Assembly (NCBI GenBank): GCA_017433825.1
Contig: JAFRGL010000006.1
Span: forward strand, 124,001 to 188,000
Direction: 5' to 3'
DNA length: 64,000 nucleotides
Source: Eubacterium sp.
GTDB taxonomy: Bacteria > Bacillota > Clostridia > Lachnospirales > Lachnospiraceae
Positions 287 to 28,353 of the stretch are shown one piece after another; within the stretch, counting starts at the first letter, position 1; each line of letters begins with the position of its first letter. The notes under the pieces were generated by a model, which ran no database searches, was not told the origin of the DNA, and saw nothing but the letters and a program-made list of their open reading frames with translations. The position numbers and the translations under genes were made by a program.

Positions 287-297
287 ACCAGGTAAAT

Positions 298-349
298 AAA
301 CCGGGGATGCAGTTCCTTGAAAAGGAACCGCATCCCCGGTTTATTTTTT
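298..349 (+). terminator. Bidirectional terminator between the HPr-like gene and mecA
   Basis: A 21-bp stem (298-318 with 322-342, one A/C mismatch) with a GAA loop is followed by ATTTTTT on the plus strand. It is preceded by A-rich sequence that gives a U-rich tract for mecA on the minus strand. It ends two convergent genes. Confidence 0.9.
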
Positions 350-376
350 GCCGTAAATGGCAGGATACCGAAGGCT

Positions 377-1168: not shown

Positions 1169-1228
1169 TTTTATTTAACCTTCATAATACGGCCGAAGCC
1201 TGAAAACAATTACTTTTATTCCAACTAT

Positions 1229-1257
1229 ATAATATACCAAAATGCTGACATTTACAA
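1229..1257 (-). promoter_or_regulatory. Sigma-A-type promoter of mecA
   Basis: On the minus strand, TTGTAA (1252-1257) and TATTAT (1229-1234) are 17 bp apart. The start of mecA lies about 60 nt downstream. Confidence 0.6.
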
Positions 1258-1276
1258 TGCCCGATGATATTTTTCC

Positions 1277-1305
1277 TTGAAGTTTTCCGCCTGTTGGGGC
1301 ATAAT
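1277..1305 (+). promoter_or_regulatory. Candidate promoter of the GH18-to-deaminase gene run
   Basis: TTGAAG (1277-1282) and CATAAT (1300-1305) with a 17-bp spacer, 88 nt before the GH18 start codon. It is the best match in this intergenic stretch. Confidence 0.45.
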
Positions 1306-1393
1306 GTAGCATAAGAATGGGCTGTGTTTTGCGTTAGGGGGAGACCATGCTTCCCGCGGTATACAGTCTGTAAAAGCCCTTCGGAGGAACCGG

Positions 1394-3046: not shown

Positions 3047-3061
3047 GGAAAGGAGAACACG

Positions 3062-3880: not shown

Positions 3881-3883
3881 AAA

Positions 3884-4945
3884 ATGAAAGCCTTACTGTT
3901 ACGCATGCCGCCGGACAATCCGGACCCGGAACAGATTGAAGAAGCCGGCAGGATTATCCGGGAAGGCGGCCTGGTGGCTTTTCCCACTGAAACGGTTTAC
4001 GGGCTGGGCGGAAATGCCCTTGACCCGGCTTCTTCAAAGAAGATTTACGCCGCAAAGGGCCGGCCCTCCGACAATCCGCTTATCGTGCATATAGCGGAAT
4101 GGGAGGCGCTGGACCGGATTGCGGCCGAAGTCCCGCAAAAGGCGCTTATGCTGGGCAGGATTTACTGGCCGGGGCCTTTAACCATGATTTTTTCCAAAAC
4201 GGAAGAAGTGCCTTACGAAACCACCGGCGGACTGGATACCGTTGCGGTGCGTTTCCCGTCCCATAAGGTGGCGCAGGCCCTCATCCGCGCGTCCGGCGGT
4301 TATATTGCGGCGCCCAGCGCAAACCTGTCCGGACGGCCTTCCCCCACGAAGGCGGTTCATGTTATCGAAGACCTGGGAGACCGGATTGACGCCGTCATTG
4401 ACGGCGGGGATGCGGATATCGGCCTGGAATCCACCATTGTGGATTTTACTGAAGACGTACCGGTGCTTCTGCGTCCCGGTTATATCAGTGTGGAAAAGCT
4501 AAGAGAAGCACTGGGGGAAATACGTGTCGACCCGGGCATTATCGCCGACAATTCCGGTATAATTCCGAAGGCTCCCGGTATGAAATACCGGCATTATGCG
4601 CCGAAAGGGACGCTTTCCGTGGTGGAGGGCAGACCCGAAGACGTCATCCGCACCATCAATTCACTGATAGAAGAAGCGGAGAAAGCAGGCAGAAGCTGTG
4701 CCGTTTTATGCGCTGACGAGACAGCGTCCTCTTACAGAGGGAAGGTATATATCCTTGGCTGCCGTGCGGATGAAGAAGAGGTTGCGGCGGCTCTTTTCGA
4801 TACGTTAAGACAGCTGGATACGGACGGCGTGGAATACATCTATTCTGAAGCTTTTCCGTCGGAAAACCTCGGGGCGGCCATCATGAACCGCCTCCTGAAG
4901 GCGGCAGGGCACCGGATTATACATGCAGGGGAAGAATCCTTATAA
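3884..4945 (+). CDS. sua5: L-threonylcarbamoyladenylate synthase, Sua5 type
   Basis: Makes threonylcarbamoyl-AMP from threonine, bicarbonate and ATP, the first step of the t6A37 tRNA modification. The N-terminal YrdC domain (about residues 15-210) carries VAFPTETVYGLG and KGRPSDNPLIVH, the nucleotide and substrate-binding motifs. The C-terminal Sua5 domain (about 235-350) makes this the long form (353 aa) rather than the short TsaC form. The linker holds the PGMKYRHYAP motif seen in Sua5 proteins. The start is 3 nt after the preceding gene. Confidence 0.93.
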   Translation: MKALLLRMPPDNPDPEQIEEAGRIIREGGLVAFPTETVYGLGGNALDPASSKKIYAAKGRPSDNPLIVHIAEWEALDRIAAEVPQKALMLGRIYWPGPLTMIFSKTEEVPYETTGGLDTVAVRFPSHKVAQALIRASGGYIAAPSANLSGRPSPTKAVHVIEDLGDRIDAVIDGGDADIGLESTIVDFTEDVPVLLRPGYISVEKLREALGEIRVDPGIIADNSGIIPKAPGMKYRHYAPKGTLSVVEGRPEDVIRTINSLIEEAEKAGRSCAVLCADETASSYRGKVYILGCRADEEEVAAALFDTLRQLDTDGVEYIYSEAFPSENLGAAIMNRLLKAAGHRIIHAGEESL

Positions 4946-4984
4946 CAGAGGTTCTGATATTATTATTTTTGCAAGGAGGTTCAC

Positions 4985-5413
4985 ATGTTAGCTTTAGGCT
5001 GTGATCACGGCGGATACGGTTTAATGCAGGAAGTGAAGGCACATCTGGACAAAAGAGGCATCGAATACAGGGATTTCGGCACCTACAGCGCCGAATCCAC
5101 GGACTATCCCATCTATGCCAAAAAGGTATGCACTGCCATAACGGAAGGCGAGTGCGAGTTCGGCATACTTATCTGCGGGACGGGCATCGGCATGTCCATG
5201 ACTGCCAATAAATTCAAGGGCATCCGCGCTGCGGTCTGTTCGGACTGCTTCTCGGCCCAGGCCACCAGATCCCATAATAATGCCAATGTACTTTGCATGG
5301 GCGAACGTACCGTGGGACCGGGCCTTGCGCTTTTGATTACGGACACCTTCCTGGACACACCATTTTCTGAAGAAGAACGCCACAAAAGACGAATTGCAAT
5401 GATTGAAGACTGA
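4985..5413 (+). CDS. rpiB: Ribose-5-phosphate isomerase B
   Basis: A 142-aa RpiB/LacAB-family isomerase that interconverts ribose 5-phosphate and ribulose 5-phosphate. The first strand LALGCDHGGY and the catalytic-loop motif ILICGTGIGMSM (with the active Cys) are diagnostic, as is the NVLCMGER segment. AAGGAGG lies 5 nt upstream of the start. Its position next to upp fits supply of ribose phosphate for PRPP and nucleotide salvage. Confidence 0.93.
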   Translation: MLALGCDHGGYGLMQEVKAHLDKRGIEYRDFGTYSAESTDYPIYAKKVCTAITEGECEFGILICGTGIGMSMTANKFKGIRAAVCSDCFSAQATRSHNNANVLCMGERTVGPGLALLITDTFLDTPFSEEERHKRRIAMIED

Positions 5414-5431
5414 TAAAGGAGAACAACAGTT

Positions 5432-6061
5432 ATGGCAAGAACGGAAATCATGGACCACCCGCTGATCCAGCACAAAATCGGAATCATCAGGAAGAAACAG
5501 ACCAGTTCAAAAGAATTCAGGGAGCTTATCGGTGAGATCGCCATGCTGATGTGTTATGAAGCATGCAGGGATCTTCCCCTGGAAAGCATAAAGGTGGAAA
5601 CGCCCATCGGCCCCACGGTGGCGAAACGTCTTGTCGGTAAAAAGCTGGCGGTTGTACCCATCCTGCGCGCAGGCCTGGGCATGGTGGAAGGCATGCTTAC
5701 CATTATTCCTTCTGCGAAAGTCGGCCATATCGGCCTTTATCGGGATCCGGAGACCCTGGAGCCGGTGGAATACTACTGCAAGCTTCCGGCGGATATTTCC
5801 CACAGGGATGTCTTTGTTACCGATCCCATGCTTGCCACCGGCGGTTCCGCAACAGCAGCCATCAGCATGCTGAAAGCAAAAGGGGCCCAGAGGATTCATT
5901 TCATGTGTATCATTGCGGCTCCGGAAGGCCTGAAGAGAATGCAGGAAGAGCATCCGGACGTAGACATTTATGTCGGTGCCCTGGATGAGAGACTGAATGA
6001 TCACGGCTACATCGTTCCCGGCCTGGGCGATGCAGGTGACCGTATCTTCGGAACGAAATAA
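5432..6061 (+). CDS. upp: Uracil phosphoribosyltransferase
   Basis: A 209-aa enzyme converting uracil and PRPP to UMP. The PRPP loop [14 protein letters not shown] and the uracil-binding end [15 protein letters not shown] are both intact, and the length is normal. It follows rpiB by 18 nt and precedes a dCMP deaminase gene by 10 nt, giving a small pyrimidine-salvage group. Confidence 0.96.
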
Positions 6062-6071
6062 GGAGATTTTT

Positions 6072-6560
6072 ATGAGCGGTAAACGCGAAGACTATATTTC
6101 CTGGGACGAGTATTTCATGGCGGTGGCAAAGCTGGCCGGCATGCGGTCCAAGGACCCCAATTCCCAGGTAGGCGCCTGTATTGTCAGCGAGGACAATAAA
6201 ATCCTCTCCATGGGCTACAACGGATTTCCCTCAGGCTGTTCGGACGACGAATATCCATGGGAGAGGGAGGGGGACGATCCCCTTACCACCAAATATTTCT
6301 ATGTAACCCACAGCGAGCTGAACGCAATTTTAAATTATTCCGGCGGTTCCTTAAAAGGCGCCAAGCTGTACGTATCCCTTTTTCCCTGCAATGAGTGTGC
6401 AAAGGCTATCATTCAGTGCGGCATCAAAACGGTGATATACGACATCGATAAATACGACGGTACGCCTTCCGTCACCGCTTCCAAGATGATGCTGGCTTCC
6501 GCAGGAGTGTCCATCATTAAATACAAACCCTCAAACAGGGTGCTGCGGATAGAAGTTTAA
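6072..6560 (+). CDS. dCMP deaminase
   Basis: A zinc-dependent deaminase of 162 aa (ComEB/dCD family) that converts dCMP to dUMP, the dTMP precursor. The zinc motifs are HSELNAI and PCNECAKAI; the first usually reads HAE, so a Ser sits beside the zinc His. An open frame extends back to 5997 inside upp, but AGGAG at 6061-6065 and the family N-terminus place the start at ATG 6072. The upp stop codon overlaps the ribosome site, which suggests translational coupling. Confidence 0.9.
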   Translation: MSGKREDYISWDEYFMAVAKLAGMRSKDPNSQVGACIVSEDNKILSMGYNGFPSGCSDDEYPWEREGDDPLTTKYFYVTHSELNAILNYSGGSLKGAKLYVSLFPCNECAKAIIQCGIKTVIYDIDKYDGTPSVTASKMMLASAGVSIIKYKPSNRVLRIEV

Positions 6561-6579
6561 GCTTGCCAATTCGGCGTAT

Positions 6580-6609
6580 TTGGGTTATCATTACACAAAG
6601 CGGTATACT
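6580..6609 (+). promoter_or_regulatory. Promoter of efp
   Basis: TTGGGT (6580-6585) and TATACT (6604-6609) with an 18-bp spacer, 56 nt before the efp start codon. Confidence 0.6.
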
Positions 6610-6665
6610 AATACCATCAGACTAGTACGCAGCGTCAAGGCTGTGATGAAGGAGGAATACTATTT

Positions 6666-7223
6666 ATGATCTCAGCAGGAGAAATCAGGAACGGCGTAAC
6701 CATCGAAATTGACGGCGATCCGGTACAGATTATCGAATTCCAGCACGTAAAACCCGGTAAAGGCGCTGCTTTCGTCAGAGTAAAATATAAAAAGATCAAA
6801 ACCGGCGGCGTAGTGGAAACCACCTTCCGTCCGGAGGAGAAATTCCCCCAGGCGCGTATTGACAGGAAGGATATGCAGTACCTGTACAGCGACGGCGATC
6901 TTTTCTATTTCATGGATATGGACACCTATGATCAGACACCTCTTTCCAAGGAGACAATCGGCGATGCCCTGAAGTTCGTCAAAGAGAACGAGATGTGCAA
7001 GATCTGTTCCTTCAACGGCGAAATCTTCTCCGTAGAGCCCCCGACCTTCGTTGAGCTGGAAGTGACTGATACCGAGCCCGGATTCGCAGGCAACACGGCC
7101 CAGGGTGCCACCAAGCCTGCCACCGTGGAAACCGGTGCGGTTGTCTATGTTCCCCTGTTCGTAAATATCGGCGACGTGCTGCAGATCGACACCAGAACCG
7201 GCGAGTATCTGAAGCGTGTCTGA
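6666..7223 (+). CDS. efp: Elongation factor P
   Basis: A 185-aa EF-P with KOW-like, OB and C-terminal OB domains; it rescues ribosomes stalled at polyproline. The loop [14 protein letters not shown] contains the conserved Lys at the tip (about residue 32) that is modified in many bacteria. The C-terminal [16 protein letters not shown] is canonical. It is a single-gene unit with its own promoter and terminator. Confidence 0.96.
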
Positions 7224-7261
7224 TTCCTGCAGCAGAATTTAAGCTTTCATGTGAATGATTT

Positions 7262-7295
7262 CCCGGCGGGTAAAAGCCCGCCGGGCAGTTCTTTT
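7262..7295 (+). terminator. Terminator of efp
   Basis: A 9-bp GC stem (CCCGGCGGG, 7262-7270, with 7277-7285), a 6-nt loop, then a pyrimidine tract CAGTTCTTTT. Confidence 0.75.
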
Positions 7296-7473
7296 CTTCC
7301 GGGTATTCCCGGCTTTTCTTCATAATTCCCGTATTTTCTGAAAATTCCCCTTCTTCGCTTATCCCTTATTTAAACCATTCTTTTTTTATCTGTATTTTTC
7401 TGTTTTTATCATTTCTTATTTTTACCGTTCTTTTTCTTTTCTGTATTTCATTTCTCAAGGAGGTAACTATACC

Positions 7474-8079
7474 ATGTATCTGAAAAACCACAAAAACATT
7501 GACCCTGAAAGAATCCGCATCCATCTGATATGCGGCTGTGTAGGCGGCGGCTTTCTGGACAATTTCCCGCACAGGCGGATTCTGGACATGAATGCGGTCT
7601 GCGCCTTCCGCTTTGACAATCCGTCTGAATTTGCCTATCTGGACAATCGGGATGCGGAACAGATGGGGCTAACCGGTGATGAACTGGTAAACCTCGCCAT
7701 GGACAATTCGCTCCGGCATGACGGCTATTTCACGGAGCCTCTGCTGGAGGTGCTGGGTTTTGATCCGCCTGAAGGGGAAGAGCAGGAAAACGCAGTCTAT
7801 GTACTCACGAACAGGGAGCGGTTTTTCGGTTCTTCCGCACTGTGCTTTTCCTCTGTTCTTAAAAGCGCGGCGGACAAGGCGGGCGGCGACTGTTACATCA
7901 TTCCCAGCAGCGTCCATGAGTGCCTTCTGATTCCGGCGCAGAGCGTGGCAGCCCCTTCTGCCTTAAGGGAAATGGTCTACCACATCAACCGCACACAGCT
8001 TGCGTCTTCGGAGCTTCTTTCCGACAGTATCTATTATTACAGTCACAAGGAAGGCGCGCTTCGGATTGACATTTCCTGA
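7474..8079 (+). CDS. DUF5688-like protein
   Basis: A soluble 201-aa protein. The C-terminal half matches the pattern I associate with DUF5688, a family common in Lachnospiraceae: VYVLTNRERFFGSSAL, then IIPSSVHECLLIP, then ELLSDSIYYYSH. Function is unknown. The protein is shorter at the N-terminus than usual members (about 270 aa). AAGGAGG lies upstream after a 110-nt T-rich leader. The 3' end contains the -35 box of the tRNA-Arg promoter. Confidence 0.65.
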   Translation: MYLKNHKNIDPERIRIHLICGCVGGGFLDNFPHRRILDMNAVCAFRFDNPSEFAYLDNRDAEQMGLTGDELVNLAMDNSLRHDGYFTEPLLEVLGFDPPEGEEQENAVYVLTNRERFFGSSALCFSSVLKSAADKAGGDCYIIPSSVHECLLIPAQSVAAPSALREMVYHINRTQLASSELLSDSIYYYSHKEGALRIDIS

Positions 8080-8094
8080 ATGATGTGATAATAT
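8066..8094 (+). promoter_or_regulatory. Promoter of tRNA-Arg, inside the 3' end of the DUF5688-like gene
   Basis: A consensus TTGACA (8066-8071), 17 bp, then TAATAT (8089-8094). A start near 8100 gives a leader of about 50 nt before the tRNA. Confidence 0.7.
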
Positions 8095-8128
8095 CTGTAT
8101 TCAGTCAGGGACATCGGATGTTCCTGAG

Positions 8129-8148
8129 GGCCTGAAAAAGTTCAGGCC
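8129..8148 (+). other. Leader hairpin in front of tRNA-Arg
   Basis: GGCCTGAA (8129-8136) pairs perfectly with TTCAGGCC (8141-8148) across loop AAAG. It has no following U run, so it is not a normal terminator. The same architecture precedes tRNA-Pro at 53657-53676. Confidence 0.6.
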
Positions 8149-8151
8149 GCT

Positions 8152-8224
8152 GCGTTTGTAGCTCAGGGGATAGAGCAACGGTTTCCGGTACCGTGTGGCG
8201 GGGGTTCGAATCCCTCCAGACGCG
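8152..8224 (+). tRNA. tRNA-Arg (anticodon CCG)
   Basis: A 73-nt cloverleaf. The acceptor stem GCGTTTG pairs with CAGACGC (one G-U), the D stem is GCTC/GAGC, and the anticodon stem ACGGT/ACCGT closes loop TTCCGGT with anticodon CCG at positions 34-36. The T arm is GGGGG TTCGAAT CCCTC. The 3' CCA is not encoded (TCA follows the discriminator G). A perfect hairpin (8129-8148) ends 3 nt before the mature 5' end. Confidence 0.93.
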
Positions 8225-8245
8225 TCATATCATTTAACTGATAGG

Positions 8246-8266
8246 GGCCGGGTACAACCGGCCTTT
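8246..8266 (+). terminator. Weak terminator after tRNA-Arg
   Basis: Stem GGCCGG/CCGGCC (8246-8251 with 8258-8263), 6-nt loop, followed only by TTT. Read-through into the next gene is possible. Confidence 0.4.
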
Positions 8267-8316
8267 GTGCTATATAAAAGTTACTGGTTAGTTTTGTTCA
8301 CAAGGAGAAAGTTTTC

Positions 8317-9012
8317 ATGGACGAAAACAATACAAGACCGCCTCGAAAAGAGGAGAACCCGGTCCGAGAGTGGATATCCGACAATTTAAGGTACCTCATT
8401 CTCATCGGTGTTATCGTACTTATCGCCCTCGTAGTTTTCTTCATAATCAGAAATTACCGCAGGAAGAATAAACCTGCCGATCCCGAAACCACCGTCGAAT
8501 CCGTATCCTCTTCATCAGAGGCAGCAAGCGCATCTTCCGAAGAACCGGAACCCTATGCCGGTCTGGTGGATAACCCGGAGAGCTATACGGAAGTGATTGA
8601 ACGTTATTTTGACGCCCTGAACAATGCGGATGCCGATGCTGCAGCGCTTCTGACGGAAGAAATGACGGATACGGACAGGAGCGACATTTCCGCGGGCGTT
8701 TACAACAGAAGCTACGGCAATATCACGGTCTATGGTTACGACAGGACAGAGGATGACTGTGCCGCCGTACTGGTGCAGTATACCTACAGGCTTCCGGCGG
8801 CGGATGTGGATATCCCCGGCCTTACGGAATACTGTATGAAGAATACGGATGCAGGCTGGAAGATTGCTTCGGAGGAAACCCAGCGGATGCATAAGGACCT
8901 GCTGGACGAGGTGCTGGCAAGCCAGGAGGGCAAAGCCCTGGTGGAAAGCGTCCGCAGTGCTTATGAAAAAGTGATGAGGGAGAATCCGAACCTTGCGGAC
9001 TTCCTTCCGTAG
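8317..9012 (+). CDS. Single-pass membrane protein with NTF2-like outer domain
   Basis: A 231-aa protein with a charged cytoplasmic start (about residues 1-24), one membrane helix (about 25-46, rich in Ile/Leu/Val), a Ser/Glu linker (about 55-85), and an outside domain that begins YTEVIERYFDALNNADA, the usual opening of NTF2-like/DUF4878 folds. No catalytic motif is visible and I do not assign a function. AAGGAG precedes the start. It lies 14 nt before the pseudouridine synthase gene. Confidence 0.75.
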   Translation: MDENNTRPPRKEENPVREWISDNLRYLILIGVIVLIALVVFFIIRNYRRKNKPADPETTVESVSSSSEAASASSEEPEPYAGLVDNPESYTEVIERYFDALNNADADAAALLTEEMTDTDRSDISAGVYNRSYGNITVYGYDRTEDDCAAVLVQYTYRLPAADVDIPGLTEYCMKNTDAGWKIASEETQRMHKDLLDEVLASQEGKALVESVRSAYEKVMRENPNLADFLP

Positions 9013-9026
9013 GAAGAGTATGACAG

Positions 9027-9728
9027 ATGCGGATCAATAAGTACTTAAGCCATTGCGGCATTGCCTCCCGGAGGGCGGCAGATGAGCTGCTGCGGGCCGG
9101 AAGGGTGACGGTAAACGGACTGCCGGCTGAATTCGGCATGCAGGTGGAGCCGGAAGACGAGGTCTGTGTAGACGGAAAGCCGGTTGAGGCACCGGAGCAG
9201 AAGACTTATCTGATGTTCAACAAACCCAAAGGCCTGGTCTGCACTTCTTCGGACAAGGAAGCGGCGAACATCTTCGATTACCTGAAGCTGCCCGGGCATC
9301 TTACCTATGCGGGAAGGCTGGACAAGGACTCGGAAGGACTGCTGCTCCTTACCGACGACGGGGATTTGATTAACGCCCTGATGAAGGGAAGCGCCTCCCA
9401 TGAAAAAGAATATGTGGTGAAGACTACCCGCCCGGTGACGGAAGAACAGCTTTCGAAGATGGCGGAGGGACTTTATCTGGAAGAAATCGGCCGTGCCACA
9501 AAGCCTTGCAGGGTTTATAAAAGCGGTACGACCGAATTTCATATTATACTGACCCAGGGCATCAACCGCCAGATCCGGCGGATGTGCCGGGCCGTCGGCC
9601 TTCATGTGGCAGCTTTGAAAAGAATCAGAATCGCAAACCTGAAGCTGTCGGATCTGCCGACAGGTAAAACAAGGCCTTTGACGGAGAATGAGCGGACAAG
9701 GCTTATGGAAATCGCAGGCAGGGGATAA
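9027..9728 (+). CDS. RsuA/RluB-family pseudouridine synthase
   Basis: A 233-aa rRNA pseudouridine synthase. The N-terminal S4 RNA-binding domain (MRINKYLSHCGIASRR, about residues 1-55) is followed by the catalytic domain with GRLDKDSEGLLLLT; the nucleophile is Asp99. The motif GINRQIRRMC near residue 175 is also typical. The exact site (RluB, RluF or RsuA type) cannot be told from sequence alone. It is 3 nt upstream of ligA. Confidence 0.9.
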   Translation: MRINKYLSHCGIASRRAADELLRAGRVTVNGLPAEFGMQVEPEDEVCVDGKPVEAPEQKTYLMFNKPKGLVCTSSDKEAANIFDYLKLPGHLTYAGRLDKDSEGLLLLTDDGDLINALMKGSASHEKEYVVKTTRPVTEEQLSKMAEGLYLEEIGRATKPCRVYKSGTTEFHIILTQGINRQIRRMCRAVGLHVAALKRIRIANLKLSDLPTGKTRPLTENERTRLMEIAGRG

Positions 9729-9731
9729 GAG

Positions 9732-11699
9732 ATGGAAAACAGTCCGGATACCAAGAGAATGCGTGACCTTGTGGAGCTTTTGAATAAAGCCCGGAAGGCA
9801 TATTATGCGGATTCCGAAGAGATTATGGACAACTTTACTTACGACAGGCTGTACGACGAGCTGGAGGCTCTGGAGAAGGCGACGGGGGTTGTTTTCTCGG
9901 ATTCCCCCACGGTGCAGGTTGGCTATGAAGTGACTTCATCCCTTCCGAAGGTAACCCACGAATCGCCGATGCTTTCCCTGGACAAGACCAAGGAGCGGGA
10001 CGTTTTAAAAGAGTTTATCGGCAGCCGGAAAACCCTCCTTTCCTGGAAGATGGACGGACTGACTATCGTACTGACCTACCGGAACGGTTCCCTTTACCAG
10101 GCCGTAACCCGGGGAAACGGTACCGTAGGCGAGGTGATTACAGCCAATGCACGGGTGTTCAAAGGCCTTCCCTTCCGCGTGCCGGACGGCCGGGAGATTA
10201 TCCTCCGGGGAGAAGCATATATCAGTTACACGGATTTCGAACGCATCAATGCCGGGATTGAGGACGTGGACGCGAAATACAAGAATCCGCGTAACCTGTG
10301 CAGCGGGTCGGTACGACAGCTGGACAGCGCGGTGACGGCATCCAGAAATGTTCGCTTCAAGGCTTTCACACTGGTGAAGGCAGACGGCGTGGATTTCGGA
10401 AACTCCGTGGAGAACCAGATGAAATGGCTGGAAAGCCTGGGCTTTGATGTGGTGGAATACAAGGCAGTTACTGCAGAGAACCTGGATACGGTTATGGATG
10501 ATTTTGCCGCGAGAATATCTTCCAATGATTTCCCCAGTGATGGTCTTGTAGCGGTTTACGATGATATCGAATACGGCAGATCCTTAGGACGCACCGCAAA
10601 ATTCCCCAGGAATGCCATGGCTTTCAAATGGGCTGACGAGGAAATGGAGACCACCTTAAAAGAGGTGGAATGGAGTCCGTCCCGGACAGGCCTTCTAAAC
10701 CCGGTGGCCATTTTCGAGCCGGTGGAGCTGGAAGGCACTTCCGTTTCCCGGGCAAGCCTGCACAATGTATCCGTGCTGCGGCAGCTGAAGCTGGGCATCG
10801 GAGACAGGATAAAAGTCTACAAGGCAAACATGATTATCCCGCAGATATCGGAGAATCTGACCTGCAGCGGGAACCTTCCGATTCCCGACACCTGTCCGGC
10901 CTGCGGAGGACCGACTTATCTGGCAGAGGAGAACAACGTGCAGACCCTTATCTGCGTCAATCCCGACTGCCCCGCAAAGGCCATCAAAAGCTATGCGCTT
11001 TTCGTAAGCCGCGATGCCATGAACATGGAAGGCCTTTCCGAATCCACACTGGAAAAATTCATGGCCCACGGGCTCATTAAAAGCTTCGGGGACATTTACC
11101 GGCTGAAAGAGCACAGGGACACCATCGTCAGCCTGGAGGGCTTCGGAGAGAAATCCTTCCGGAAGCTGACAGATGCCGTAGAAGCCTCAAAAGATACGGA
11201 CATGGCCCGGCTTCTGTACAGCATGGGCATTCCGAATATCGGCCTGTCCGGCGCGAAGCTCATCGTCCGCGAACTGGGAAACGACCCGGAGGTCCTTAAA
11301 AATGCCTCCATGGACCAGCTGACCGCCATAGACGGCATCGGAGAAGTCATCGCCGCTTCCTATACCGACTGGTGGCAGTCGGAGACGAACCGGAAGAATT
11401 TCGATGAAGTGCTTTCCTTTGTTCGGCTCCCCAAAGAAGCTGCTGAACACCCTGCGCAGACACCGCTGGCCGGATTGACCTTTGTTATTACCGGCTCGGT
11501 GGCGCATTTTGCCAACCGCAGCGAGCTGAAGAATTTCATCGAAGAACACGGCGGCAGGGTGACCGACAGTGTCAGCAAAAACACGGATTATCTGATAAAC
11601 AATGACGTGACTTCGGGCTCTTCCAAAAATAAGAAAGCCCGCAGCCTGGGTGTGAAAATTATCTCGGAAGAGGATTTTCTGGCCCTGGCGGAGTCTTAA
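9732..11699 (+). CDS. ligA: NAD-dependent DNA ligase LigA
   Basis: A 655-aa NAD+-dependent ligase for Okazaki fragment joining and repair. The adenylated Lys is K106 in SWKMDGL. The zinc finger C-P-A-C ... C-V-N-P-D-C is at about residues 390-420, followed by helix-hairpin-helix repeats and a C-terminal BRCT domain (about 580-655). The BRCT part is more divergent than usual (NNDVTSGSSKNKKA replaces the common GSKL segment). Length is close to normal (about 670). Confidence 0.95.
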   Translation: MENSPDTKRMRDLVELLNKARKAYYADSEEIMDNFTYDRLYDELEALEKATGVVFSDSPTVQVGYEVTSSLPKVTHESPMLSLDKTKERDVLKEFIGSRKTLLSWKMDGLTIVLTYRNGSLYQAVTRGNGTVGEVITANARVFKGLPFRVPDGREIILRGEAYISYTDFERINAGIEDVDAKYKNPRNLCSGSVRQLDSAVTASRNVRFKAFTLVKADGVDFGNSVENQMKWLESLGFDVVEYKAVTAENLDTVMDDFAARISSNDFPSDGLVAVYDDIEYGRSLGRTAKFPRNAMAFKWADEEMETTLKEVEWSPSRTGLLNPVAIFEPVELEGTSVSRASLHNVSVLRQLKLGIGDRIKVYKANMIIPQISENLTCSGNLPIPDTCPACGGPTYLAEENNVQTLICVNPDCPAKAIKSYALFVSRDAMNMEGLSESTLEKFMAHGLIKSFGDIYRLKEHRDTIVSLEGFGEKSFRKLTDAVEASKDTDMARLLYSMGIPNIGLSGAKLIVRELGNDPEVLKNASMDQLTAIDGIGEVIAASYTDWWQSETNRKNFDEVLSFVRLPKEAAEHPAQTPLAGLTFVITGSVAHFANRSELKNFIEEHGGRVTDSVSKNTDYLINNDVTSGSSKNKKARSLGVKIISEEDFLALAES

Positions 11700-20613: not shown

Positions 20614-21795
20614 ATGGCAAAGAAAGTTGTTCTCGCCGGTGCCTGCCGTACCGCAATCGGAAGCATGCTCGGTTCCTTAGGCACCACTCCCGCAGCTGAC
20701 ATGGGCGCTCTTGTTATCAAGGAAGCGCTTAAGCGCGCCGGCGTTCCGGCTGACAAGGTTGACCTCGTTTACATGGGTTGTGTTATCCAGGCAGGTCAGG
20801 GACAGAACGTTGCCCGTCAGGCTTCCATCAAAGCCGGACTTTCCATCGAAACTCCCGCCGTTACCATCAACGTTGTATGCGGTTCCGGCCTTAACTGCGT
20901 AAACATGGCCGCTGCCATGATCCAGGCCGGCGAAGCCGATATCATCGTAGCAGGCGGCACGGAGAACATGTCCCTTGCTCCCTATGCCCTTATGAAGGCA
21001 AGAACCGGTTATCGTCTGTTTGACGGCAAGCTCGTTGATACCATGGTTAATGATGCCCTTTGGGATGTGTTCAACAACTATCACATGGGTATTACCGCTG
21101 AGAACGTAGCTGAGCAGTGGGGACTGACCAGAGAGCAGCTTGATGCGTTTGCTGCTGCCAGCCAGCAGAAAGCTACCGCAGCTATCGCTGCAGGCAAGTT
21201 CAAAGACGAAATCGTTCCCGTTGAAATCAAGCAGAAGAAAGCTACCGTAGTTTTCGATACCGATGAAGGCCCGCGCGCAGGCGTTACAACCGAGAGCCTT
21301 GCGAAGCTGAAACCCGCTTTCAAGCCCGACGGCATTGTAACAGCCGGTAACGCTTCCTCCATCAACGACGGCGCTGCTGCAGTTGTTGTTATGAGCGAAG
21401 AAAAAGCCAAAGAGCTGGGTGTTAAGCCCATGGCTACCTGGGTTGCAGGTGCTCTTGGCGGCGTAGATCCCTCCATCATGGGTGTAGGTCCCGTTGCTGC
21501 AGTTAAGAAAGTTATGGCCAAGACCGGTCTTTCCGTTGCTGATATGGACCTTATCGAAGCCAACGAAGCTTTCGCTGCCCAGTCTCTTGCAGTTGCGCAT
21601 GACCTTGAGTTCGATATGGAGAAGGTTAACGTTAACGGCGGCGCCATTGCCCTCGGCCATCCCGTAGGCGCTTCAGGCTGCCGTATCCTGGTTACCCTGC
21701 TTCACGAGATGGAGAAGAGAGATGCGAAGAAAGGCCTTGCCACCCTTTGCATCGGCGGCGGCATGGGCTGCGCCACCATCGTGGAAAGAGACTAA
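20614..21795 (+). CDS. thlA: Acetyl-CoA C-acetyltransferase (thiolase)
   Basis: A 393-aa thiolase II that joins two acetyl-CoA to acetoacetyl-CoA, the entry to butyrate-type fermentation. The acyl-accepting Cys is in [14 protein letters not shown], the second active Cys is in [11 protein letters not shown], and NEAFAAQ and [14 protein letters not shown] are canonical. Codon use is much more biased (GTT, GCT, CTT, AAG) than in neighbouring genes, which suggests strong expression. The gene stands alone with a consensus-like promoter and a strong terminator; other butyrate genes are not in the window. Confidence 0.96.
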
Positions 21796-21823
21796 TCCCT
21801 TAAAGCAATATGATTTATACCAG

Positions 21824-21851
21824 GGCCTCCGGTTTTCCGGAGGCCTTTTTT
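21824..21851 (+). terminator. Terminator of the thiolase gene
   Basis: A perfect 9-bp stem GGCCTCCGG/CCGGAGGCC (21824-21832 with 21837-21845), TTTT loop, then a T run to 21851. Confidence 0.9.
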
Positions 21852-22010: not shown

Positions 22011-22039
22011 TTATCAATTTCCGGGTTTTTGTATATTAT
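22011..22039 (+). promoter_or_regulatory. Promoter of the cobalamin-riboswitch operon
   Basis: TTATCA (22011-22016), 17 bp, TATTAT (22034-22039), about 40 nt before the first conserved riboswitch bases. Confidence 0.55.
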
Positions 22040-22080
22040 ATAAATTGTATGGGAGATTAACAGTACATTTACAATTTCAT

Positions 22081-22325
22081 GTTCAGGTGAGTTCCTTCGG
22101 CTTTGATTTATTGCAGGATATAAATCCGCTGATTATCGAAGCCCCAGGATTAAAAGGGAAGCCGGTGTAAGTCCGGCGCGATCCCGTCACTGTGAGAGCG
22201 AGTTTTCCGTCATTTATGTCACTGCAGATTTCAGCCGGCAGCAGGATCTGCTGTTTAAATCAGGGGTCTGTGGGAAGGCGGCGGAAGATGATGACCTTAA
22301 GCCAGGAGACCTGCTTATCCGAACG
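22081..22325 (+). promoter_or_regulatory. Cobalamin (B12) riboswitch
   Basis: The conserved core is present in order: AAAAGGGAAGCCGGTGTAAG (22153-22172), CCCGTCACTGT (22183-22193), CTGTGGGAAGG (22268-22278), GATGATGACC (22287-22296) and the B12 box AAGCCAGGAGACCTGC (22299-22314). It is followed by a terminator at 22404-22432 directly before the first gene, so binding of adenosyl- or methyl-cobalamin is expected to stop transcription. Confidence 0.95.
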
Positions 22326-22403
22326 TCTGTAGTAATTTCTGCGATGAACGGAAAGAGGCTATGGCAGGGACCGGCAGGAGAATTCTGCCCGGCCCTTTGT
22401 TTG

Positions 22404-22432
22404 GCACCCGTTTATGGCAGGGTGCTTTTTTT
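22404..22432 (+). terminator. Expression-platform terminator of the riboswitch
   Basis: Stem GCACCC/GGGTGC (22404-22409 with 22420-22425) followed by seven T. A second GC-rich hairpin just upstream (about 22366-22397) may be the alternative structure. Confidence 0.75.
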
Positions 22433-22474
22433 GTGTCTGCAATTAAATTTGAATACATCAAGGAGGAATAATGC

Positions 22475-24073
22475 ATGTCTGTTAAACCCATCAAGGACAT
22501 TAAACTCAATGTCCGCCCCGTTACTGTTGCCCTGCATCATGATTACGTCTTCGAAGGACCCTGCAGGTTCGGCGAAGGCGTCCAGCTTACAGCGGATTAT
22601 GATCAGACGGTAAACGGTATGATCAGCAAAGGCTTCCAGGCCAATCTGGAGAAAGAATTTGATTTGGACAAGATCAACTTCCTTCCCCACGTTTTCATTG
22701 ACCGCAACGAAGAATTCCTGATTACGGACGAGGATATGGCAAAGGTGGCCGAAGATATCGATAAAGTGGATGCTTTCTTCGTCTGCCAGGCTATCCGCAC
22801 ATATGATTTCGTCATTGAGATGGCGGAAAGATTCAACAAACCCGTTATTATAAGTCCTACTTTCGCCGTGGATGTAATCGCAACAGCTGCCATTGCCGCT
22901 ACAGGCAGGAAAATCTATCCGGTACGTACGCTGGACGACGTACGCCGTCATTTCAATGTTCTGCGTGTTAAAAAGATGCTGAATCATATGACCGTTCTGG
23001 CCAGCGCAAGGCTGAATTCCAACAGGTCAATGCCTTCCGCTCCCGACGGCTTCCTTTCCACAGAAGATGTAACAAAACGCATGGGCATCCGTTTCCGTTA
23101 TGCGGACCCGCATGAAATCATTGATTCAACCCACCCGATTTCCAAACAGGAACTGTATGACGAGAATTCCACGAATCCGACCACGCCCGGCCGCATCGGT
23201 CTGAATCCGGACGATAAGGATATGGAAATCATCGGAAAGATTACCGACGATTTTATTGCCGGCGCAGCAGAGTGTGATATGGAAAGAACGGAAATCTTCA
23301 ATTCCGTGAAAGCCTGGTATGTGGTGAACAAATTCATGGACCATCTGGACTGCAACGCATTTACCATCCCCTGTCCGGATATCTGTGCAACCCGTCGGCT
23401 GAACAAGGAACGCATTACATTCTGCCTGACCCATTCCCTGAATCAGGAATTCGGCATTCCCTCAGCCTGCGAATATGACCTTCCCGCGCTGGTTACCCAG
23501 GCAATCCTCATGGGCCTGTCCGGCAAGGCGCCTTACATGGGCAACTGTGAAAACGGCAATCTTCCGGATTCCGACCTGGACAGCAACGGTTTCTGGGGCG
23601 TAGGCGGCATGTTCAAGCATGAGGCCTCCAGAAATGAGGACCTGCCCTTTGTACAGAAACAGCAGAAGGAAAAAGGCGGCAGCTATGTGCTGGTTACACA
23701 TGCCGTTCCCAACAGGAAATTCAAGGGATTCGATACGGAAAACGCGCCTTATGCAATCCGTTCCTTTGCCAGAAGCGGTTTCGGCGCCACTATCCGTTAT
23801 GATTTCAAACAGGATGCCGGCCAGGTGGTTACCCTGATGCGCATCGACCCTCTCTGCAAAAAGTTCTTTATCGCAAAGGGAGAAGTAGTGGGCGGAATCG
23901 GCTATAAGGATACAAACTGCTCAGAAGGCGTATTTGTTAAGATTAAGGACCATGAGGATTTCTTTGAGAAACAGTCATATTTCGGAAACCACGTTCCGCT
24001 GGTATACGGTGACTATATCAAAGAGCTTAAAGGCCTTGCGAAAGAATTTGATATGGAAGTAGTGGAAGCGTAA
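22475..24073 (+). CDS. FucI/AraA-fold isomerase-like protein, copy 1
   Basis: A 532-aa protein whose C-terminal two thirds resemble L-fucose/L-arabinose isomerases: FCLTHSLNQEFGIPSACEYD (about residues 310-330), a THAVPNR segment near 412 and GATIRYDFKQDAGQVVTLMR (about 436-455), the closing beta-domain motif. The N-terminal string HHDYVFEGPCRFGEG is shared with copy 2 and is not one I know from sugar isomerases. Substrate is unknown. As first gene behind a B12 riboswitch it should be made when cobalamin is scarce. AAGGAGG lies just upstream. Confidence 0.7.
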   Translation: MSVKPIKDIKLNVRPVTVALHHDYVFEGPCRFGEGVQLTADYDQTVNGMISKGFQANLEKEFDLDKINFLPHVFIDRNEEFLITDEDMAKVAEDIDKVDAFFVCQAIRTYDFVIEMAERFNKPVIISPTFAVDVIATAAIAATGRKIYPVRTLDDVRRHFNVLRVKKMLNHMTVLASARLNSNRSMPSAPDGFLSTEDVTKRMGIRFRYADPHEIIDSTHPISKQELYDENSTNPTTPGRIGLNPDDKDMEIIGKITDDFIAGAAECDMERTEIFNSVKAWYVVNKFMDHLDCNAFTIPCPDICATRRLNKERITFCLTHSLNQEFGIPSACEYDLPALVTQAILMGLSGKAPYMGNCENGNLPDSDLDSNGFWGVGGMFKHEASRNEDLPFVQKQQKEKGGSYVLVTHAVPNRKFKGFDTENAPYAIRSFARSGFGATIRYDFKQDAGQVVTLMRIDPLCKKFFIAKGEVVGGIGYKDTNCSEGVFVKIKDHEDFFEKQSYFGNHVPLVYGDYIKELKGLAKEFDMEVVEA

Positions 24074-24108
24074 TGCCCGCTGTTTGAAATCTGCCGGAGA
24101 AAGAAGAT

Positions 24109-24513
24109 ATGTCATACAGAGAAGTTGCAGAAAGGCTCCGGGCCGCCGATAAGGCTTCGGCAGAAGAAATTGCCGCAATCCTTGCCCTGGATCATCCGGA
24201 TCCGGAGCAGGTTTACCCGCATCTGCGCAGGTATATTCTTTCCCGTTTCCTGCTGGATGACAGCATCAGGACGGATGACTTAAAGGAACTGGTAAGCTCC
24301 AGTATTTCCAAATCACTGGAAATTTCGGAATACGATCTGGCGCAGACTGACCTTTCCGACCGCTGCATTTCCGCGCCTTCTGTGGAAACAAAGCTGGCTC
24401 TTGTCATGCTGAAGTTTGAGGAAGCCCTGGGAATTAAGCTCAGTGTCATGGAAAGGGTGGACGCGGATACGCTTTATGATTACGCGGAGGCGGTCTGCAG
24501 ATATCTGCAATAA
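24109..24513 (+). CDS. Small helical protein with ACP-like C-terminal half, copy 1
   Basis: A 134-aa soluble, mostly helical protein. The C-terminal part (about residues 80-134) resembles an acyl carrier protein: APSVETKLALVMLKFEEALG aligns with the DSL-containing helix II and following loop of ACP, with Ser kept but Asp and Leu replaced by Pro and Val. The N-terminal 70 residues are extra. It is clearly paralogous to the protein at 26122-26550 (shared RFLLD/KFLLD, then S-ISKSLEIS/S-IEKLLSIS). No named family is recognised. It follows isomerase-like copy 1 by 35 nt. Confidence 0.7.
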   Translation: MSYREVAERLRAADKASAEEIAAILALDHPDPEQVYPHLRRYILSRFLLDDSIRTDDLKELVSSSISKSLEISEYDLAQTDLSDRCISAPSVETKLALVMLKFEEALGIKLSVMERVDADTLYDYAEAVCRYLQ

Positions 24514-24538
24514 ACAAATACTTATTTTGGAGGATAAA

Positions 24539-26122
24539 ATGGACGCAAGAGTAGAAAACGCAATGAAGACAACCGGAATGAAGAAGGTTATTGATATCAG
24601 GCTGAATGTACAGCCGATTTTCCTGGCGCTGTATCATGAACATGTGTTTGAGGGACCCTGCCGTTTCGGCAAAGGCGACGAGCTGAAAAAGGAATATGAC
24701 CTGGCCCTGGATGCCATGATCTACGACCGTACAGCCGCCAACTGGAAAACCATGTTTGACGAAAAAGACGTCAATGTGCTGGAACCCATTATCCTTTACA
24801 GGGATGAAACCTTCCTCACCACAGACTGGATGCTGGAAGAAATAGCCAAAACAGCGGAACAGACGGATATTTATCTGTTTGCAACGGCCAGCCGTCCCTA
24901 CGACCTTATCGTGGAATTCGCCCAGCGCATTAAGAAGCCCATCTGTATGATGCAGGACTGCTGCGGCAGCAGTATTGTAATTCCTGCCTGCCGTGCAAGA
25001 GGCGTGGAATGCTGGGGCTTTACCGATATGGAAGATGCCAATCTGACCTTCAAGGCTTTACGGGTAAGGAAAGCCCTTTCCGAGCTGAAGGTCCTGGCGC
25101 TTGTCCGCAACAATTCCAATGTTTCTATTTCCGCTCCTGACTCTTTCGTAAGCCTGGAGGATGTGACTATGAGGTTCGGGGCCCGCTTCCGCTTCCTCAA
25201 TATTCATGAATTGCTTGACTATACACATGTTATTCCTCAAACCGAGAATCATACCACACCCGGACGCCATGACGGACTGAATCTTACGGAAGATGAGATG
25301 AAGGAAGCGGAAGCGATGGCCGATGAGTTTATTGCAAAGGCAGAGGAATGCCATATGGAAAGGGACATGGTGGCGGAAACCTTCCGCGCGTACCGTACAA
25401 TATTAAAGGTGATGAACGCCTTTGAATGCAATGCCTTTACGGCACCATGCCCGGATGTCTGCGCCACCAGGAGAATCAATGAAGAGAAATTTACTTTTTG
25501 CCTGACCCATTCCCTGCTGAATGAACAGGGCGTTCCTTCCGCATGTGAATATGACGTTCCGGCGCTTTTTGGCGCCATGCTCCTGCAGAATGTATCCCGC
25601 TGCCCGTCTTACCAGGGCAATACCATTACTGCGCCTCTGGTTAACGGCATGCGTTCCTTTGTACCCCGCGGAGCGCTTTTAAACCGTGAATCCGTGGAGA
25701 AAGCGGACAAGGAGCTGGGAGAACTGGAGAATGTCTGCCTGACATTCCATGCCGTTCCCACCCGCTTCCCTAGGGGCTTCGAATCTGCCATGGAACCGTA
25801 CAGCATCCGCTCCTTCGCACATTCCGGATTCGGCGCTACCGTGCGTTATGATTTCAAACGCGATATAGGCGAATCCATCACCATGGCCCGCTTTGATCCC
25901 ACCGGTACCAAGCTGTTCGTTGCCAAAGGCAAAATCTGCGGCGGCGTAGGCTACGGCGACAGGAACTGCTCCGAAGGCGTATTCTTCCAGGTGGAAAACA
26001 GCTCTGATTTCTTCCAGAAACAGCTCTGGTTCGGCAACCATGTTCCGCTTGTATACGGCGACTGGATGAAAGAAATGGTAAGGGTGGGCGAAATCCTCGG
26101 CCTTGAAGTAATCACCGCGTAA
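24539..26122 (+). CDS. FucI/AraA-fold isomerase-like protein, copy 2
   Basis: A 527-aa paralogue of the 22475 gene product. Shared strings are HEHVFEGPCRFGKG near residue 37, TAPCPDVCATRRINEEKFTF, FCLTHSLLNEQGVPSACEYD and GATVRYDFKRDIGESITMAR. Insertions and the segment between CEYD and the C-terminal domain differ, so the copies are old and probably not redundant. The frame is open back to 24416, but GGAGG at 24529-24533 with 5-nt spacing selects ATG 24539, leaving 25 nt after the small gene. It may form a hetero-oligomer with copy 1; that is a guess. Confidence 0.7.
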   Translation: MDARVENAMKTTGMKKVIDIRLNVQPIFLALYHEHVFEGPCRFGKGDELKKEYDLALDAMIYDRTAANWKTMFDEKDVNVLEPIILYRDETFLTTDWMLEEIAKTAEQTDIYLFATASRPYDLIVEFAQRIKKPICMMQDCCGSSIVIPACRARGVECWGFTDMEDANLTFKALRVRKALSELKVLALVRNNSNVSISAPDSFVSLEDVTMRFGARFRFLNIHELLDYTHVIPQTENHTTPGRHDGLNLTEDEMKEAEAMADEFIAKAEECHMERDMVAETFRAYRTILKVMNAFECNAFTAPCPDVCATRRINEEKFTFCLTHSLLNEQGVPSACEYDVPALFGAMLLQNVSRCPSYQGNTITAPLVNGMRSFVPRGALLNRESVEKADKELGELENVCLTFHAVPTRFPRGFESAMEPYSIRSFAHSGFGATVRYDFKRDIGESITMARFDPTGTKLFVAKGKICGGVGYGDRNCSEGVFFQVENSSDFFQKQLWFGNHVPLVYGDWMKEMVRVGEILGLEVITA

Positions 26123-26550
26123 TGAGCAGGGCCGAAATTGTAAAAAGACAGCTGGAGGCAGTCAGCGCGGGAGCGGAAAAAGAGACACAGGCCATTTTGG
26201 AAGCGCTGCCGCATATCACATTCGGTGAACTGGAAGAACATATCAGGCAGTTTATCCTGCATAAGTTCCTTCTGGATTCGGACTGTGAGGAAGACGATAT
26301 CAGAAAGCTTTCCCAGCTTTCCATAGAAAAACTCCTTTCCATCAGTGAACGGGAGCTGAATACGTCCGACCTGGGGCTTGGCTGCGGGGGAACATCCTCC
26401 GTGGACAATAAAATAATCCTGCTTTTTATGGCCCTGGGCCGTGAACTGGGTGTTGCCGTTAATCCGCTCCGTACACCCGCACTGAAGACTGTGCGGATTC
26501 TGACGGAGGAAATCCAGATGCTTTTAAAGGAAGAAGGCAGGCTGGCCTGA
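26122..26550 (+). CDS. Small helical protein with ACP-like C-terminal half, copy 2
   Basis: A 142-aa paralogue of the 24109 gene product. The C-terminal part reads NTSDLGLGCGGTSSVDNKI then LLFMALGRELGV, close to the DLGADSLD ... VMALEEEFGI pattern of acyl carrier proteins, with SSV in place of DSL. Its start codon overlaps the stop of isomerase-like copy 2 by one base (TAATG), which argues for tight coupling of the two products. Whether the Ser carries phosphopantetheine cannot be seen. Confidence 0.7.
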   Translation: MSRAEIVKRQLEAVSAGAEKETQAILEALPHITFGELEEHIRQFILHKFLLDSDCEEDDIRKLSQLSIEKLLSISERELNTSDLGLGCGGTSSVDNKIILLFMALGRELGVAVNPLRTPALKTVRILTEEIQMLLKEEGRLA

Positions 26551-26731: not shown

Positions 26732-27943
26732 ATGTTCTCAGCTGATGAAATACGGAAAGATTTTCCCGTTCTGGAAAGGAAAATTGACGGCCGCCCCCTG
26801 ATCTACCTGGACAATGCGGCAACATCACAGATGCCGCTTCAGGTAATGGAAGCCCTGGAGTCGCAATACCGTTTCCACAACGCAAATGTGCACAGGGGCA
26901 TTCACACCTTAAGCAATGAGTCCACGAAAGCTCTGGAGGACGCAAGACGTACGGCTGCTGCCTTTATCGGAGCACTTCCGGAGGAAATCGTATTCACTTC
27001 CGGAACAACGGATTCCGTCAACATGCTGGCGGCCGCTTTCCGGGAAAAAATGACCGGCAAAGACAATGTGGTTGTGACGGTTATGGAGCACCATTCGAAT
27101 TTCGTTCCCTGGCAGATGCTCTGCCGGCATACAGGTGCGGAATTCCGCGTCTGCCCGTTAACAGATACAGGCGAAACAGATTTGAAAGCTCTGAAAAACC
27201 TGGTGGATAAAAATACCCGCGTTGTTGCGGCTGCCCAGGTGGGCAATGTCCTTGGAACCATAAATCCGGTACAGGAGATTGCGGAAATCTCCCATGCAGC
27301 CGGCGCATTTTGCGCAGTGGACGGTGCCCAGGGCGTGCGCCACGGGGTTACAGATGTAAAGAAAATGAACTGCGATTTTTATTCTTTTTCCGGCCATAAG
27401 ATGCTGGGGCCTGCGGGTATCGGCGTTTTATACGGCAGGAAAGAGATCTTTGATACATTTACCCCCCAAAGGTACGGCGGCGGAATGGTGGATACCGTCA
27501 CCGCCGCCGGCACCACCTTCCTGGAATCTCCGGCAGGCTGGGAGGCAGGCACCCCGAATTATCCGGGGGCCATAGGGCTTGCTGCAGCCATGGATTACCT
27601 GACCGGCCTGGGCAGGGAGGAAATCGCAGCCCGGGAGGAAATGCTCTGCCGCATGCTGGCGGAAGGCCTTTCGGCAGCGGAAGGCGTGACCATACTTGGA
27701 AAACCGGCAAAACGGACCGGCGCTGTAAGCTTTGTGATGGAAGGCATCCATCCCTATGACGCCGCTGCCTTACTTGACAAGCTGGGCATAGCGGTTCGCA
27801 GCGGAACACACTGTGCCCAGCCCCTGCTGGCATCCCTGGGACTGGAACACACCTTACGTGTATCTCCGGCATTTTACAATACGGAGGAAGAAATCGAACG
27901 GTTCTTTAAAGGACTGGAGAAAATCAGGAGCATTCTGCAATGA
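26732..27943 (+). CDS. sufS: Cysteine desulfurase, SufS/Csd type
   Basis: A 403-aa PLP enzyme of the group II NifS family. It takes sulfur from cysteine as an enzyme persulfide. The PLP Lys is K223 in SFSGHKMLGP and the persulfide Cys is C361 in RSGTHCAQP. The start has a GGGAGG site. It is coupled to a SufE gene (ATGA overlap), but SufB, SufC, SufD and SufU are absent nearby, so its sulfur acceptor is open. It lies 181 nt after the B12-controlled modules and may or may not share their transcript. Confidence 0.92.
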   Translation: MFSADEIRKDFPVLERKIDGRPLIYLDNAATSQMPLQVMEALESQYRFHNANVHRGIHTLSNESTKALEDARRTAAAFIGALPEEIVFTSGTTDSVNMLAAAFREKMTGKDNVVVTVMEHHSNFVPWQMLCRHTGAEFRVCPLTDTGETDLKALKNLVDKNTRVVAAAQVGNVLGTINPVQEIAEISHAAGAFCAVDGAQGVRHGVTDVKKMNCDFYSFSGHKMLGPAGIGVLYGRKEIFDTFTPQRYGGGMVDTVTAAGTTFLESPAGWEAGTPNYPGAIGLAAAMDYLTGLGREEIAAREEMLCRMLAEGLSAAEGVTILGKPAKRTGAVSFVMEGIHPYDAAALLDKLGIAVRSGTHCAQPLLASLGLEHTLRVSPAFYNTEEEIERFFKGLEKIRSILQ

Positions 27944-28353
27944 CCATCGATGAAGTGCAGGATTCCATAATTGCGGATTTTAAACTGATAGGCGATTCAT
28001 TCAACCGGTACACGCTTTTAATCGAACTGTCCAAAGAACTGCCAAAACCGCCGGATGAGATGCTGACGGACGACAGGCTGGTGAAGGGCTGTCAGTCCAG
28101 GGTCTGGCTGGATATAGGATATAAAGACGGACTGTCCGTTATCACTGCCTACAGTGACACGCTGATTATACGCGGAATCCTCTCCCTTGTTCTGGAGGTG
28201 TACAACGGACGCACACCGGAGGAAATCCGTCAAAGCAGCCTGTATTTTTTCGAAAGCGCGGGCATTGCGGAATTCCTTTCCGAAGAACGGACGAAAGGCA
28301 TGGGCCAGGTTATCAAAACGATTATGAAAAGTGCTGATACACTAACTTCATAA
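27940..28353 (+). CDS. sufE: SufE-family sulfur acceptor
   Basis: A 137-aa SufE-like protein that takes the persulfide from the desulfurase and stimulates it. The acceptor is Cys51 in VKGCQSRVW, at the same position as in E. coli SufE. The start overlaps the desulfurase stop by 4 nt, so the pair is translationally coupled. Confidence 0.92.
   Translation: MTIDEVQDSIIADFKLIGDSFNRYTLLIELSKELPKPPDEMLTDDRLVKGCQSRVWLDIGYKDGLSVITAYSDTLIIRGILSLVLEVYNGRTPEEIRQSSLYFFESAGIAEFLSEERTKGMGQVIKTIMKSADTLTS

Follow-up and report, generated by a model that had tools for sequence, protein, structure and literature searches.

What does a cobalamin riboswitch control when it stands before genes for proteins with a sugar-isomerase fold and small partners resembling acyl carrier proteins (ACPs)? 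This question is raised by a locus in a 64,000-nucleotide stretch of a Eubacterium sp. genome (GenBank assembly GCA_017433825.1, contig JAFRGL010000006.1, positions 124,001 to 188,000 of the forward strand), referred to here as the window. An earlier note on this DNA had described two tandem pairs of such genes behind the riboswitch, ending at position 26550. Its interpretation, that the operon may stand in for a B12-dependent reaction or deal with a precursor at low B12, is supported in part. Both pairs were borne out: four plus-strand genes in the order ISO1-SM1-ISO2-SM2 occupy positions 22475-26550, where ISO denotes a FucI/AraA-fold protein and SM the small ACP-fold protein that partners it. 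The observation is confirmed and the module is larger than described, the end given for it having missed two further genes, for a SufS-type cysteine desulfurase and a SufE-type sulfur acceptor. The reading favored here, to which we give slightly less than an even chance, is that SufS, SufE and SM form a sulfur relay to ISO that is made when cobalamin is low, and that ISO acts on a small polyhydroxylated compound.

All six genes lie on the plus strand. ISO1 (22475..24073), recognized by its open reading frame (ORF), fold and conservation, carries seven conserved cysteines and is 45% identical in alignment to ISO2 (24539..26122; ORF and alignment). SM1 (24109..24513; ORF and alignment) has the invariant cysteine of its family and no DSL serine, and SM2 (26122..26550; ORF, AlphaFold model and structure comparison), with its invariant Cys88, overlaps ISO2 by one base. 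The sufS gene (26732..27943; TIGR01979, 501.2 bits against a cut-off of 475.1) starts 181 nt past SM2, and a simple scan of this gap found no promoter- or terminator-like site. It overlaps sufE (27940..28353; PF02657, 118.3 bits against a cut-off of 27) by 4 bp. Several independent kinds of evidence point to the module as a unit; no description of it appeared among the titles listed by an open-access library, a coverage outside which most subscription journals fall.

A species-genome collection was scanned with two ISO motifs, and the best 80 of 90 confirmed stretches gave 76 loci (L denotes a DNA stretch compared, G a genome, and G000 the genome of the window). With relatives included, 77 ISO loci were compared; the duplicates L087, L095, L097, L108 and L119 were dropped and the overlapping L079 and L109 were kept. 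The same cassette of ISO, SM, SufS and SufE was met again and again in Lachnospiraceae, Oscillospiraceae and Eggerthellaceae, with SM within 2.5 kb of ISO at 72 of the 77 loci, SufS within 5 kb at 54 and SufE within 5 kb at 58. Where 5 kb were available on both sides (36 loci), SM was present at 34, SufS at 27, SufE at 29 and all three at 25. These counts are lower bounds, as a fused gene was counted for its best family only, which misses SM in L055 and SufE in L070, L120 and L122. The fusions themselves link the three sulfur-side proteins pairwise: SM-SufS in L178 and L055, SM-SufE in L070 and L120, and SufS-SufE in L122. Of 294 genomes sampled from the order, seven contain ISO (E<=1e-40) and three contain a SufE above its cut-off, each of the three having ISO as well (Fisher 8e-6, own genome counted; a sub-cut-off SufE match in G535, at 21.5 bits, was left out). 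Among 61 relatives, SufE was found in four, of which G000, G003 and G027 also have ISO, and three further genomes had remote FucI-like matches only.

The predicted fold of ISO, compared by VIA-align, is that of FucI/AraA, and its sequence nevertheless scores far under the cut-offs of the known families (16.7 of 29.3 bits for PF02952; 19.8 of 700 for NCBIfam SftI); a PDB sequence search with ISO gave no match. The earlier proposal that FucI/AraA-fold proteins are paired here with ACP-like ones stands for the folds, and ordinary membership of either family does not. Sulfoquinovose isomerase was considered as an identity and rejected, its scores being of superfamily level only. The L-fucose and L-arabinose isomerases have a Glu-Asp-His metal site, which was mapped onto ISO through relatives. 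ISO departs from this site: the third metal ligand is Asn in place of Asp in 82 of 84 aligned ISOs and Glu in the other two, and L173 and L174 are the only ISOs without the Glu ligand. By fold ISO belongs with FucI, AraA and SftI, and by family cut-off and metal site it does not; it also differs from them in its desulfurase partner and in three extra cysteines.

Seven cysteines are invariant in the 84 aligned ISOs. C300, C317, C332 and mostly C482 are also found in a broad FucI-like group, whereas C30, C293 and C304, a triad present in 84/84, are not. Eight ISOs came from whole-genome searches without a desulfurase criterion (L019 and L172-L178, the latter being all order-sample ISO matches except those of the window's own genome; L019 is also among the 84 and L178 is a close relative). 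The triad is present in all eight, and each has a desulfurase-like gene in its vicinity, in six cases as the next gene. A desulfurase is absent at 33 of 34 FucI-like control loci, L158 having one; the flanks of these controls were mostly about 1.5 kb, those of most ISO loci being 7-8 kb, and two pairs of controls overlap (L005/L023 and L006/L024), leaving 32 places. The FucI-like relatives lack the triad wherever this can be judged (the ORFs of L141 and L151 are too short for C30), as do FucI-like paralogs within ISO loci (L172b, L174b). We read the triad as the mark of a shift toward sulfur-dependent chemistry. An ISO profile run on a phylum sample of 398 genomes gave, beyond the window's own two proteins, matches of at most 59 bits that were mostly of the FucI-like control kind. 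A scan of viral contigs with ISO1 alone found no relative, and a search of plasmids with the divergent ISO of L174 found one 26%-identical fragment annotated as fucose isomerase.

In ACPs, the serine that bears phosphopantetheine begins a helix; in SM, the invariant Cys88 sits just before the corresponding helix. The acyl carrier fold of SM was obtained by structure comparison with an AlphaFold model of SM2. Unlike ACPs, SM has an extra N-terminal helix and lacks the D/G-S-[LIVM] phosphopantetheine-serine motif in all 67 proteins compared, of which six match PF00550 at E<=0.1; the reading of SM as a true ACP was dropped on this missing motif. The SufS of the cassette keeps its RxGxxC active-site motif in 48 of 48 proteins tested, and the acceptor cysteine of SufE lies in GCxS in 35 of 57, the other 22 showing Cys-Gln there. 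The module is in this respect like the SufS-SufE and CsdA-CsdE relays, in that its SufS and SufE score over their family cut-offs and keep their catalytic cysteines. It is unlike them in its partners, ISO and SM, in its SM-SufS and SM-SufE fusions, and in standing without a SufBCD scaffold alongside. The SufB/SufD scaffold (PF01458) is not in the module operon, and in four of four genomes (G000, G003, G684 and G484) it lies on other contigs or far away, so the module is not the housekeeping SUF cluster. The desulfurases beside divergent ISOs vary, with phmmer scores of 58 to 319 bits against the SufS of the window; that of L019 matches TIGR01977 best among NCBIfam models, under its cut-off, and the others are SufS-like or, by eye, of further types. 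In L019 (G021, 297-10432), the divergent ISO stands between this TIGR01977-like gene and a YihQ-group GH31 enzyme (PRK10426, 986 bits), with a glycyl radical enzyme about 3 kb away by eye. A 97-aa protein is encoded 3' of the desulfurase beside the divergent ISOs of L175 (9499-9792) and L177 (9352-9645); the L175 copy has no Pfam match.

How cobalamin enters is seen upstream of ISO1. The earlier note had called a riboswitch, a terminator and a promoter. The riboswitch is clear, with a plus-strand RF00174 aptamer at 22122..22332 (cmscan 87.3 bits, cut-off 31.5, E 3.6e-20), as is a plus-strand intrinsic terminator between aptamer and ISO1 at 22403..22432, a 7-pair stem with a 10-nt loop and a T run (GGCACCC-10 nt-GGGTGCT, then T run), which the standard terminator scan does not list because it accepts loops of 3-8 only. 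The promoter is not established: the box with which the stretch described in the note opens (22011-22039) scores 9/12, and two such boxes were found against 1.4 expected from shuffles. Fold prediction gives a putative competing antiterminator-like hairpin on the same strand (22331..22426, ends approximate) that holds the 5' arm of the terminator. When 22322-22440 is folded by itself, this hairpin has the lowest energy (-43.6 kcal/mol, z -2.3), whereas the longer stretches 22290-22440, 22270-22440 and 22111-22440 fold with the terminator hairpin instead. Since the competing hairpin wins the short fold and the terminator the longer ones, we only infer the direction of the response, in which cobalamin binding would stop transcription.

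Counting the window, RF00174 stands over its cut-off before ISO at five places. L017/L008 and L018/L014 represent two riboswitch-ISO operons of G003, L054 is the closest relative, and L109 completes the set; each of the five has a terminator-like hairpin between riboswitch and ISO, seen without a shuffle control. A sixth candidate, L107, has the same layout as the window (riboswitch-ISO-SM-ISO-SM-SufS-SufE) and a sub-threshold riboswitch (24.9 bits where 31.5 are required, with E 6e-4 for a search over 1.5 kb). With three such riboswitches in G000 and eight in G003, about 0.1-0.3 riboswitch neighbors would be expected among 84 ISO genes, and the probability of at least four is 4e-6 to 3e-4 in a rough Poisson estimate that assumes 2,200-2,500 genes per genome. 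The five riboswitch-linked ISOs fall in four separate branches of an ISO tree made by a quick method and with some long branches, so that different ISO lineages have probably come under cobalamin control on several separate occasions. Such repeated recruitment suggests that the cobalamin link concerns the chemistry rather than one substrate.

A search for the B12-binding domain PF02310 pointed to two places in the genome G000 and to a single place in G003. In each genome, one methyltransferase-type corrinoid protein adjoins MeTr and a RACo-like activator, and G000 has one more PF02310 frame of 583 codons. MetE (PF01717) was not found in G000 or G003, and a PF02574 protein was. These corrinoid/MeTr sets, with no MetE found, point to methyl transfer as a main B12-dependent function in the two genomes, and it is conceivable that such corrinoid functions could be replaced by a B12-free substitute. 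A search for diol dehydratase (PF02286) gave no match in G000, G003 or G684 and is uninformative, as its control was also without a match anywhere. The corrinoid set of G000 (L185, contig C16), which comprises a weak URO-D match, the corrinoid protein, MeTr, the RACo-like activator and a LysR gene, adjoins cobamide genes.

In the favored scheme, SufS would draw sulfur from cysteine, and SufE and SM, the latter through Cys88, would hand it to ISO. ISO would take it at a site on C30, C293 and C304, where it would form either a persulfide or one component of a metal-sulfur center. So loaded, ISO may act on a sugar, a sugar acid or a plant phenol in a reaction other than plain aldose-ketose isomerization. 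Each ISO-SM pair would have a substrate of its own, with SufS and SufE common to the pairs. In this genus, the riboswitch would stop transcription of some pairs when cobalamin is plentiful, leaving them as a B12-free alternative at scarcity. The computation itself supports the riboswitch, the association and fusion of the genes, the predicted folds, the conserved cysteines and the repeated linkage of riboswitches to ISO; the course and end point of the sulfur, the parts played by Cys88 and the triad, the OFF response and the replacement of a B12-dependent function go beyond it.

A number of observations weigh against this scheme. Gene order and fusions show a partnership, not a flow of sulfur into ISO. 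The two motifs with which the genomes were scanned include C30 and C332, so that the invariance of these two is partly selection; C293 and C304 lie outside the motifs. The Asp-to-Asn change is common to the broad FucI-like family without a desulfurase and is on its own no argument for sulfur chemistry. Once the window's own genome is removed, the SufE-ISO link in the order sample rests on two genomes, and four of the seven ISO genomes there are without SufE and show no SM around ISO, from which it follows that divergent ISOs manage without the full relay. G005, of the same genus and 82% complete, has a SufS-SufE pair (L162) and no detected ISO. No separate SufS or SufE lies within 5 kb at 14 of the 77 loci (in L120, SufE is fused to SM); some of these are on short contigs, and for L016, L018, L086, L117 and L121, which are not, supply in trans must be assumed. 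Most cassettes lack a cobalamin riboswitch: the riboswitch model R1 gave eight matches over 83 loci, seven of them before ISO (five distinct places, including the sub-threshold L107) and one elsewhere, with L017 and L018 matching R1 partly by construction, and no match in L172-L178.

The same evidence bears on other explanations. Sulfur might be used stoichiometrically, with ISO passing it to the substrate to give a thiolated product, or with a persulfide accepting a group such as methyl. A dedicated desulfurase and carriers would suit this, and a B12-free, sulfur-dependent demethylation would account for both the desulfurase and the cobalamin switch, in line with the corrinoid sets and missing MetE match of G000 and G003. 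However, no recurrent methyl-metabolism gene was found beside ISO by clustering and inspection of the neighbors, and the single SufE gene of G003, which has five ISO genes, suits catalytic loading better than bulk supply; this use is improbable, if by no means negligible. It is unlikely that ISO is an ordinary sugar isomerase with the desulfurase genes as passengers, despite its fold, its mostly kept Glu and His metal positions, an Asn it shares with FucI-like proteins lacking a desulfurase, and the sugar genes of some divergent loci (a GH78 rhamnosidase, PTS, SMP-30 and an aldolase). The fusions among the sulfur-side proteins and the co-occurrence of SufE speak against it, desulfurases of clearly unequal similarity stand beside ISO, and FucI-like paralogs at the same loci lack the triad.

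Equally unlikely is a module that builds the cofactor of a third protein, with ISO as scaffold rather than enzyme. Sulfur relay genes do dominate the cassette, glycyl radical enzymes were seen by eye near ISO in L019 and L114, and the commonest clustered family besides regulators is molybdopterin-oxidoreductase-like, at 10 loci. Those 10 loci are mainly of Coriobacteriia, a class rich in enzymes of this type, none of the other client families is common, and ISO multiplies within genomes as enzymes do (five copies in G003). The missing recurrent client is weak evidence, as neighbors were read by eye and by clustering and high-GC loci gave spurious ORFs. Least probable of all is a role in making or salvaging cobamides, such as a lower ligand, with induction alongside the cbi genes for that reason. 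In the genome of the window, a cbi operon and an Opp-type ABC transporter, both named by eye, are indeed preceded by RF00174 too; against this, the riboswitch-linked ISOs lie in four branches and not in one orthologous group, many cassettes adjoin PucR-type (31/77) or LysR-type (13/77) regulators within 800 bp, and no cobamide gene was noticed beside ISO in the neighbors inspected.

The riboswitch and terminator of the window, expected to be OFF with cobalamin, recall the logic of riboswitch-controlled B12-independent isozymes of the MetE/MetH kind, as given in a published account (PMC9600662); the gene content of the module is unrelated to MetE. A wider proposal, which we hold to be unlikely, is that ISO-SM pairs are a new B12-independent enzyme class, in which a persulfide supplied via an ACP-fold carrier would do the work of corrinoid enzymes on plant-derived hydroxylated or methoxylated compounds, for example by taking methyl onto sulfur. 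To our knowledge, no other system joins cobalamin sensing to a sugar-isomerase fold and to a cysteine-sulfur relay whose carrier has the ACP fold. A sugar-isomerase fold has seemingly been turned into a sulfur-dependent protein, and the cassette, spread across rumen and gut anaerobes and multiplied within genomes, may point to a group of gut reactions not yet assigned. Were it a true B12-free substitute, bacteria would have a further way, of a new kind, to cope with scarce B12. The signature of C30, C293 and C304 with an adjoining desulfurase makes the idea easy to test.

The hosts include Eubacterium ramulus, E. oxidoreducens, Ellagibacter, Gordonibacter, Raoultibacter, Adlercreutzia, Flavonifractor, Christensenella and many metagenome-assembled genomes (MAGs) from the rumen. 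Species known for polyphenol breakdown are among them. MFS_2 transporters (Pfam) occur among the neighbors, as do, by eye, TRAP transporters, old-yellow-enzyme-like and other flavoproteins, amidohydrolases and glycyl radical enzymes. Phloroglucinol degradation occurs in E. ramulus and E. oxidoreducens, so that hosts overlap with those of the PGR, DPGC, TfD and TAL cluster; the key ring-opening enzyme of that cluster is described as belonging to the cyclase family, which would set it apart from the module (PMC10470551). An identity of ISO as dihydrophloroglucinol cyclohydrolase, suggested by the hosts, was dropped for this reason, that enzyme being of the cyclase family by the same description (PMC10470551). 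Upstream of the module in the window lies an acetyl-CoA acetyltransferase gene (20614-21795), which is not counted as part of it because a terminator-like site (21822-21847) separates the two.

Further cobalamin riboswitches were seen in other settings. In a Flavonifractor locus (L077, 11839-12063; 88.4 bits), the riboswitch lies 3' of an ISO-SM-SufE-SufS cassette instead of before ISO, with an Opp-type ABC transporter further downstream. The other two of G000 stand, with genes read by eye, before lipoprotein-like genes and the cbi operon (C7:68629-68830, L041) and before the Opp-type ABC transporter (C18:19019-19241, L042). Two of those in G003 (L047 and L048) are upstream of predicted proteins of 1642 aa, which runs off the locus, and 2582 aa.

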